This document shows positions 23,301 through 23,659 of a stretch of 64,000 nt of DNA, in pieces. This stretch comes from Streptomyces sp. NBC_00448 (GTDB lineage: Bacteria; Actinomycetota; Actinomycetes; Streptomycetales; Streptomycetaceae). Numbering within the stretch: the first letter of the stretch is position 1; every line of letters starts with the position of its first letter. Location of the stretch: NCBI RefSeq assembly GCF_036014115.1, contig NZ_CP107913.1:2359001-2423000 (forward strand). The letters run 5' to 3'. The notes under the pieces are model-generated. The model ran no database searches. It saw only the letters and a list, made by a program, of their open reading frames with translations, and was not told where the DNA came from. A program made the translations under genes and the position numbers.

Positions 23301-23659
23301 CCGACGGAGGCGTGGTCGAGGCTGAAGCCGCGGATCTGGTCGTCGTGGTACTGGTAGCCGGCGTAGGAGCCGGACGTGTCCGGGGAGAACTGCATCATCC
23401 CGAACGGCGCGGACGGGCCGGGGAAGTTGTTGATCTCGCCGACGGTCGAGCCGCCACGTCCGGTGCCGATGAGCGGGTCCACATAGCTCGCCGGGTCGGA
23501 CACCAGCGCGGAACCGGAGGAGGTGGAGGAATATGACAACGTTGTCGGTTTGTTGGACAACGTTGTCATATCGGCCGAAGCCGTACCCGCGGCCACCAGG
23601 GTCGCCACCGCACCGAGCACTGTCACGAGCGCGCCATGCAGCATGCGCCGCCTTCTCAC
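20399..23659 (-). CDS. secreted GH92 alpha-mannosidase with C-terminal accessory domains
   Basis: 1086 aa from a GTG at 23659, chosen for GGGAGG 5 nt upstream and the signal peptide that follows ([19 protein letters not shown]...ASA). GH92 N domain: [43 protein letters not shown]. GH92 catalytic barrel: the [17 protein letters not shown] stretch, [13 protein letters not shown], and C-terminal [21 protein letters not shown] plus [10 protein letters not shown]. GH92 enzymes are calcium-dependent exo-alpha-mannosidases (alpha-1,2/1,3). After ~residue 750 follow a beta-sandwich and a jelly-roll-like module ([22 protein letters not shown]) probably for sugar binding. Bases 23531-23571 hold a double LacI-type operator inside the coding region, encoding TTLS twice. 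Confidence 0.9.
   Translation of the reverse strand: [1086 protein letters not shown]
23531..23571. promoter_or_regulatory. symmetric double LacI-type operator inside the GH92 reading frame
   Basis: ATATGACAACGTTGTC (23531-23546) and its exact complement (23556-23571) around a 9-nt centre; each arm contains the 12-bp palindrome GACAACGTTGTC. The two palindromes are 21 bp apart, two helix turns, so two dimers would sit on one face of the DNA. The site lies ~90-130 bp after the start codon, right after the signal-peptide codons. Confidence 0.65.

Follow-up and report, generated by a model that had tools for sequence, protein, structure and literature searches.

Conserved LacI-type operator sequences in the signal-peptide and linker codons of secreted GH92 genes of Streptomyces and relatives suggest an in-gene block to transcription

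We analyzed a window of 64,000 nt from Streptomyces sp. NBC_00448 (NZ_CP107913.1, positions 2,359,001 to 2,423,000). Coordinates are window positions unless they carry the prefix G000, which stands for the 9.65-Mb genome of this strain; G and L numbers denote the genomes and loci compared. The minus strand of the window encodes a secreted GH92 protein, a putative alpha-mannosidase (20399..23659), with a signal peptide that we called by eye. Both the N domain and the catalytic domain are complete (Pfam PF17678, E 1.3e-63, positions 1-236 of 236; PF07971, E 9.4e-151, positions 1-463 of 464), and TIGR01180 scores 520.7 bits against a cut-off of 249.55. We place the start at the GTG at 23659 rather than at the ATG at 23698, because a Shine-Dalgarno sequence, GGGAGG (23665..23670, minus strand), lies 5 nt before the GTG and at a comparable position in the orthologue alignment, which itself favors this start. 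Directly after the signal peptide, the coding sequence contains two exact copies of GACAACGTTGTC, a unit without strand: a start-proximal copy 1 at 23556..23567 (CDS +93..+104), read in the GH92 frame as (M)TTLS, and copy 2 at 23535..23546 (CDS +114..+125), read as (P)TTLS. Start to start they are 21 bp, or two helical turns, apart.

GACAACGTTGTC is an even palindrome with a central CG, and as such fits the definition of LacI-family operators given in a section of PMC4052901. It occurs 14 times in the whole genome, compared with 0 times for the reversed control, and TGACAACGTTGTCA with up to two mismatches gives 39 sites, compared with 2 for the control. Six further genomes together contain 46 exact sites, between 6 and 9 per genome, compared with a single match of the reversed control in all of them. 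Together with ATAT flanks, the two copies form a perfect 16-9-16 inverted repeat, again without strand, at 23531..23571. An earlier sequence-only reading had described this repeat, the 21-bp distance and the double TTLS in frame behind the signal peptide, some 90 to 130 bp past the start, and all of this agrees with the sequence. The weight it put on a symmetric double site was too strong, as 15 of 20 orthologous genes have a single copy. The 16-9-16 symmetry is a by-product rather than a separate feature, since any palindrome, once doubled, makes an inverted repeat; in the 92%-identical relative L050 the ATAT flank is one-sided.

These 20 orthologous genes, including that of the window, come from Streptomyces, Wenjunlia, Lentzea and others. 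They were collected with peptide patterns of the enzyme domain, with a query lacking the operator codons and with one query containing them; queries or patterns without the operator codons retrieved 18 of the 20, and the window gene and L050, first obtained with the query that contained them, were found again without them (as L140 and L141). Nine duplicate loci were dropped by sequence identity, L150, which the motif had missed, was added afterwards and has a perfect copy, and copy statistics are based on 19 distinct genes. Over 900 bases, the GH92 locus of G003, a genome of the same genus group, does not differ from that of Actinacidiphila alni, which makes Actinacidiphila (Streptomycetaceae) the probable genus of the window. 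L048 (Actinomyces, 44% identity) was not counted as an orthologue, and its N terminus lacks any site with up to one mismatch. Of the 20 orthologues, 18 have one or more perfect copies, and the remaining two carry a one-mismatch copy. Two copies are found in five genes, as 21-bp pairs in the window, L050, L045 and L149 and as a 27-bp pair in L039. In all, the signal-peptide and linker regions of the 19 genes contain 24 copies, 22 perfect ones and 2 that differ at one position, and every copy is in the common TTLS frame.

The codons within these copies hardly vary: ACA is used in 23, ACG in 24 and TTG in 23 of the 24, so that the synonymous variation which the earlier reading had proposed to look for in the TTLS codons is not free. 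ACA and TTG are rare in these genes (3.3% of Thr and 1.9% of Leu codons, respectively). As a control across the 19 genes, a single codon is kept in 1 of 13 invariant Thr columns and in 0 of 17 invariant Leu columns downstream, and neither ACA nor TTG is the main codon of any invariant downstream column in at least five genes. The constraint also extends past the codon borders: a G precedes ACA in 24 of 24 copies, although the residue there varies (Pro 8, Leu 6, Ser, Val and Met 2 each, otherwise Glu, Arg, Gln or Lys), whereas the base after the 12-mer, the third of the Ser codon, is variable (A 12, C 9, G 2, T 1). Pairwise identity at fourfold sites averages 0.58 among the 19 genes, and mean column conservation is 0.61 in the signal peptide and linker compared with 0.86 in the enzyme domain. 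The operator is not the best-kept 12-mer of these genes, since three spots in the enzyme domain contribute ten 12-mers that are present in 18 of 18 other genes, compared with 16 of 18 for the operator; the informative contrast is that between a diverged linker and its preserved synonymous codons. The copies are not independent draws, because the genes share descent. The operator is kept as DNA, and the conserved unit ignores codon borders.

A different explanation would be selection on the protein, with TTLS serving, for example, as a glycosylated or protease-protecting linker and the palindrome being incidental. The peptide does sit in a presumably exposed linker behind the signal peptide, but such selection accounts neither for the retention of rare ACA and TTG codons nor for a constant G ahead of ACA next to a varying residue, and the two one-mismatch copies change the peptide itself, to TTMS in Lentzea L043 and to ITLS in L044. 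The inverted repeat could also work at the mRNA level, forming a 16-bp stem-loop by which translation or transcription would be slowed. RNA of 23531-23571 is predicted to fold (MFE -31.3 kcal/mol, z -5.1), as do the other four two-copy genes (z -2.3 to -5.0), but among 14 single-copy genes z ranges from -1.6 to +1.4 in 13 and is -2.4 in one, and these 14 still keep the 12-mer, 12 of them exactly and 2 with one mismatch. Moreover, the identical 12-mer occurs as non-coding DNA ahead of a regulator gene, which speaks against both explanations; we consider the peptide extremely unlikely to be the selected unit, and a hairpin function to have very little probability.

Upstream of the start codon, the alignment of orthologues reveals a promoter-like element, consisting in the window of a -35 TTGATT (23720..23725, minus strand; TTGACC in most orthologues), a 17-nt spacer and a -10 CAGGAT (23697..23702, minus strand; aligned with GAGTGT and similar sequences), the latter 129 nt before operator copy 1. 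In 17 of 19 genes, an element of this kind (TTGACC, 17-18 nt, GAGTGT) precedes the first operator by 123-146 nt, as judged with a loose pattern that was fitted after viewing the alignment from which alone the promoter was recognized; L036 has no match and L043 a doubtful one. A scan of 23400-23900 for consensus sigma-70 sequences gave no promoter. In a related group of GH92 genes (54-58% identical; 14 loci taken, 8 readable, 6 missed by the motif), all 8 readable loci have a site with at most one mismatch further upstream, so that the place of the operator differs by about 110 bp between the two groups. In L053, L057 and L153, the operator starts 14-15 nt after a similar -10, as seen by eye.

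The arrangement in the related genes, with the operator about 15 nt past the -10, could suggest that the in-gene site is likewise an ordinary promoter operator, placed close to a second promoter within the start of the gene. Such an internal promoter is highly improbable in view of the common signal peptide and of the Shine-Dalgarno sequence before the GTG, which demand a transcript beginning upstream, and of the conserved upstream promoter-like element. A transcript start downstream of 23531, which the earlier reading had named as one of two observations that would speak against its interpretation, is accordingly unlikely, the signal peptide and the upstream element being common to the orthologues.

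The same reading had pointed to a LacI regulator encoded elsewhere in the genome, and a matching candidate with its own perfect site exists outside the window. This gene, P0001 (G000:C1:8681060-8682082, minus strand), encodes a protein of 341 residues with an HTH and a sugar-binding/periplasmic-binding domain (PF00356, 54.4 bits against a cut-off of 27; PF13377, 109 bits), and is itself preceded by a perfect site, at 28 nt from its start. P0001 has a match at 59-100% identity in 14 of 14 GH92-bearing genomes searched, Lentzea included, and in all 14 orthologues a perfect GACAACGTTGTC lies 64-172 nt before the HTH codons. By the same search, none of 16 paralogous LacI loci has a perfect upstream site, and one of them, L172, has a two-mismatch site; the genome of the window contains 45 LacI-family HTH matches. 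This result is one of co-occurrence and of an autoregulation footprint, not a presence/absence correlation, because the genomes were picked for GH92. Judging from these sequences, P0001 is likely the best candidate regulator of the GH92 operators. A second LacI-family gene of the genome of the window, L181 (G000:C1:949359-950348), also one of the 16 paralogous loci, has a closely similar HTH (VSLKTVSRVVN compared with VGLKTVSRVVN). Its matched start is preceded, at 85 nt, by a one-mismatch site, GACAACGTTGGC, and L181 might encode a sister regulator reading the same operators. In Wenjunlia, the two-operator GH92 gene and the LacI gene are separated by about 8 kb (G041:C57:96153 and 104169).

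The sites point to what such a regulator may control. They lie before or at the start of several GH92 and GH76 genes, of one GH130 gene, of genes for a GH2 exo-glycosidase and a GH59 protein, and of the LacI gene, gene starts being the output of a simple GC-bias gene finder. Since the regulon includes GH92, GH76 and GH130 among others, use of mannan or of high-mannose glycans is indicated. Further sites are found near a glutaminase-A-like gene and a gene whose product has an F5/8 C domain only, and two-mismatch sites near subtilase-like, Kelch and GH3 genes; several two-mismatch sites deep within ORFs may be due to chance. The window itself contains a second operator-like site, GGCAACGTTGTC, with one mismatch (4041..4052, no strand), in the 5' part of an ORF (2228..4111, minus strand) for an MGH1-like glycoside hydrolase, where it precedes a Tat-like leader seen by eye; this gene is likely another member of the regulon.

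Building on the sequence, its conservation at the DNA level, a LacI gene that co-occurs and has a site of its own, the content of the regulon and the differing operator position, we infer the following mechanism, which covers binding, transcription start, cooperativity, roadblock and inducer. Both palindromes would be bound by a LacI-family sugar repressor controlling secreted mannan-degrading enzymes, for which P0001 is the best candidate. The operator would lie within the gene, about 120 bp or more past the inferred transcription start, in the codons joining the signal peptide and the mature enzyme, and the bound repressor would most likely halt the elongating RNA polymerase there; an inducing sugar, which is probably an oligosaccharide of mannose, would then release the repressor. 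Where two operators are 21 bp apart, two dimers on one face of the helix would probably bind cooperatively. PMC4052901 interprets pairs of LacI-family sites at 21-22 bp as an indication that dimers cooperate; four other 21-bp pairs (at most two mismatches) are present in 4 of 35 genomes of the genus, and by eye three of these seem to lie ahead of start codons.

The sequence-only reading had left the choice between a roadblock and looping to the promoter, in which a tetrameric repressor would join the in-gene operators to another operator, as in the lac operon, where LacI uses an operator within lacZ (from a portion of PMC4052901). Between -900 and +1300 relative to the YVDP codons, 17 of 19 genes have, apart from the linker sites, no site with up to two mismatches (L043 and L046 have one extra two-mismatch site each, and L041 is covered over 0.7 kb upstream only). 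In LacI, the tetramer helix is at the C-terminal end. The alignment of P0001 to full-length LacI (1lbg, residues 5-328 of 360) ends at query residue 334, leaving 7 residues beyond the aligned part, while the C terminus of LacI is about 30 residues further; P0001 thus appears to have no room for a LacI-type tetramerization tail. With no partner site in 17 of 19 genes and apparently no room for the tail, looping is improbable. A roadblock fits better and is the most likely mode, because the operator seems to lie far downstream of the promoter, no further site is found in those 17 genes and the tail appears to have no room. In E. coli, a LacI roadblock placed at 102 bp from a promoter stops 73-96% of transcription (PMC4132739). 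We therefore hold with good confidence, from the sequence comparisons, that a LacI-family mannan repressor acts at the in-gene operators, most likely as an elongation roadblock.

Sites within the start of a gene are also found in other families. A query without operator codons retrieved 30 GH76 relatives, of which 27 are readable (all but L230, L237 and L245). In 9 of these the signal-peptide codons contain a site, which reads TTMS, TTLS or, once, ITMS (2 perfect, 6 with one and 1 with two mismatches), 6 have a site upstream of the likely start, which is less sure in L231 and L238, and 12 have no site within 420 nt. A perfect TTLS follows the signal peptide in the GH76 gene L218 (from G041; the GH92 locus of this genome is the same as that of Wenjunlia L039) and in the GDSL hydrolase gene L217. 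In all N-terminal in-gene sites of the GH92, GH76 and GDSL genes, the frame is one giving uncharged residues. We tentatively suggest that leader codons are a recurrent, favored home for operators in this regulon, perhaps in secreted actinobacterial enzymes generally, with operators moving between promoter and leader in GH92, GH76 and GDSL genes. If so, a DNA-binding site would have been written into at least three unrelated secreted enzymes as uncharged TTLS or TTMS, and the block would sit just past the transcribed leader, repressing at elongation before secretion is engaged.

Several loci show other arrangements. In G000:C1:1592133-1592146 (L117, L024), a variant, GACAACGATGTC, before a GH76 gene may itself supply the ATG start, a reading made by eye from a GGAGG directly before and a Tat-like leader after it. 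At L002 1488-1512 (G000:C1:623879-623903), GGCAACGTTGCC and then GACAACGTTGTC form two operators 13 bp apart, matching a 13-bp spacing peak reported for LacI-family sites in part of PMC4052901. Palindromes read in a frame giving DNVV are present deeper in the CDS of the GH92-like gene L003 (1501; G000:C1:624666), about 360 nt past the first possible start, in the GH92-like gene L184 (1500), judged by eye from the ORF only, in ricin-lectin proteins of Lentzea (L203 2000) and Wenjunlia (L219 2000), seemingly at the same protein position, and in L190, a peptidase by eye. In G000 624666, L203, L219 and L190, the residues may explain the bases.

The GH92 operators offer a clear natural case in which selection for DNA binding, and not protein function, fixes residues and rare codons close to the N terminus of a secreted enzyme. 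They would provide a simple and testable roadblock system, in which nature supplies both single and paired operators as well as related genes that still have the operator by the promoter, and they yield a candidate repressor and regulon for the breakdown of mannan, perhaps of fungal or yeast cell walls, in Streptomycetaceae. Scans restricted to intergenic regions miss such in-gene operators. Among open-licence PMC papers, covered mostly by title or the start of the abstract, we found no report of an in-gene operator in secretion-leader codons. The novelty lies in the conserved and recurrent placement in a secretion leader, in the tandem form that occurs naturally and in the other position that the operator has in related genes.

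LacI-family operators within genes are already known, but rare. In E. coli, a PurR operator within purB reportedly acts as a transcriptional roadblock (He and Zalkin, 1992). The GH92 genes share with purB an operator within the CDS and, probably, a LacI-family repressor, the roadblock being known there and predicted here. What sets the GH92 site apart from that of purB is its location in the signal-peptide and linker codons of a gene for a secreted enzyme, its occurrence in some genes as a 21-bp tandem, its conservation in several genera and its reappearance in unrelated enzyme families within a single regulon. In lac, the repressor is a tetramer that loops to O1, whereas in GH92 we found no partner operator and P0001 appears to lack room for the tetramer tail. 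The lacZ operator does resemble the GH92 sites in being a LacI-family site within a gene, and the regulon survey that describes it places less than 1% of LacI-family sites in coding regions, with lacZ and purB as cited cases (PMC4052901; purB is cited there and in the reference lists of PMC4132739 and PMC10310618). The 21-bp pair, with two sites two helical turns apart, is similar to the tandem operators of RafR and ScrR (21-22 bp), but the pairs of the survey were counted in intergenic regions (PMC4052901, in part). Finally, Streptomyces CebR, which controls cellulose utilization, is likewise a LacI-family repressor of polysaccharide use, reported to bind both upstream of and within the thaxtomin cluster, and differs from the present system in its site, TGGGAGCGCTCCCA, and in its substrate (sections of PMC4890002).
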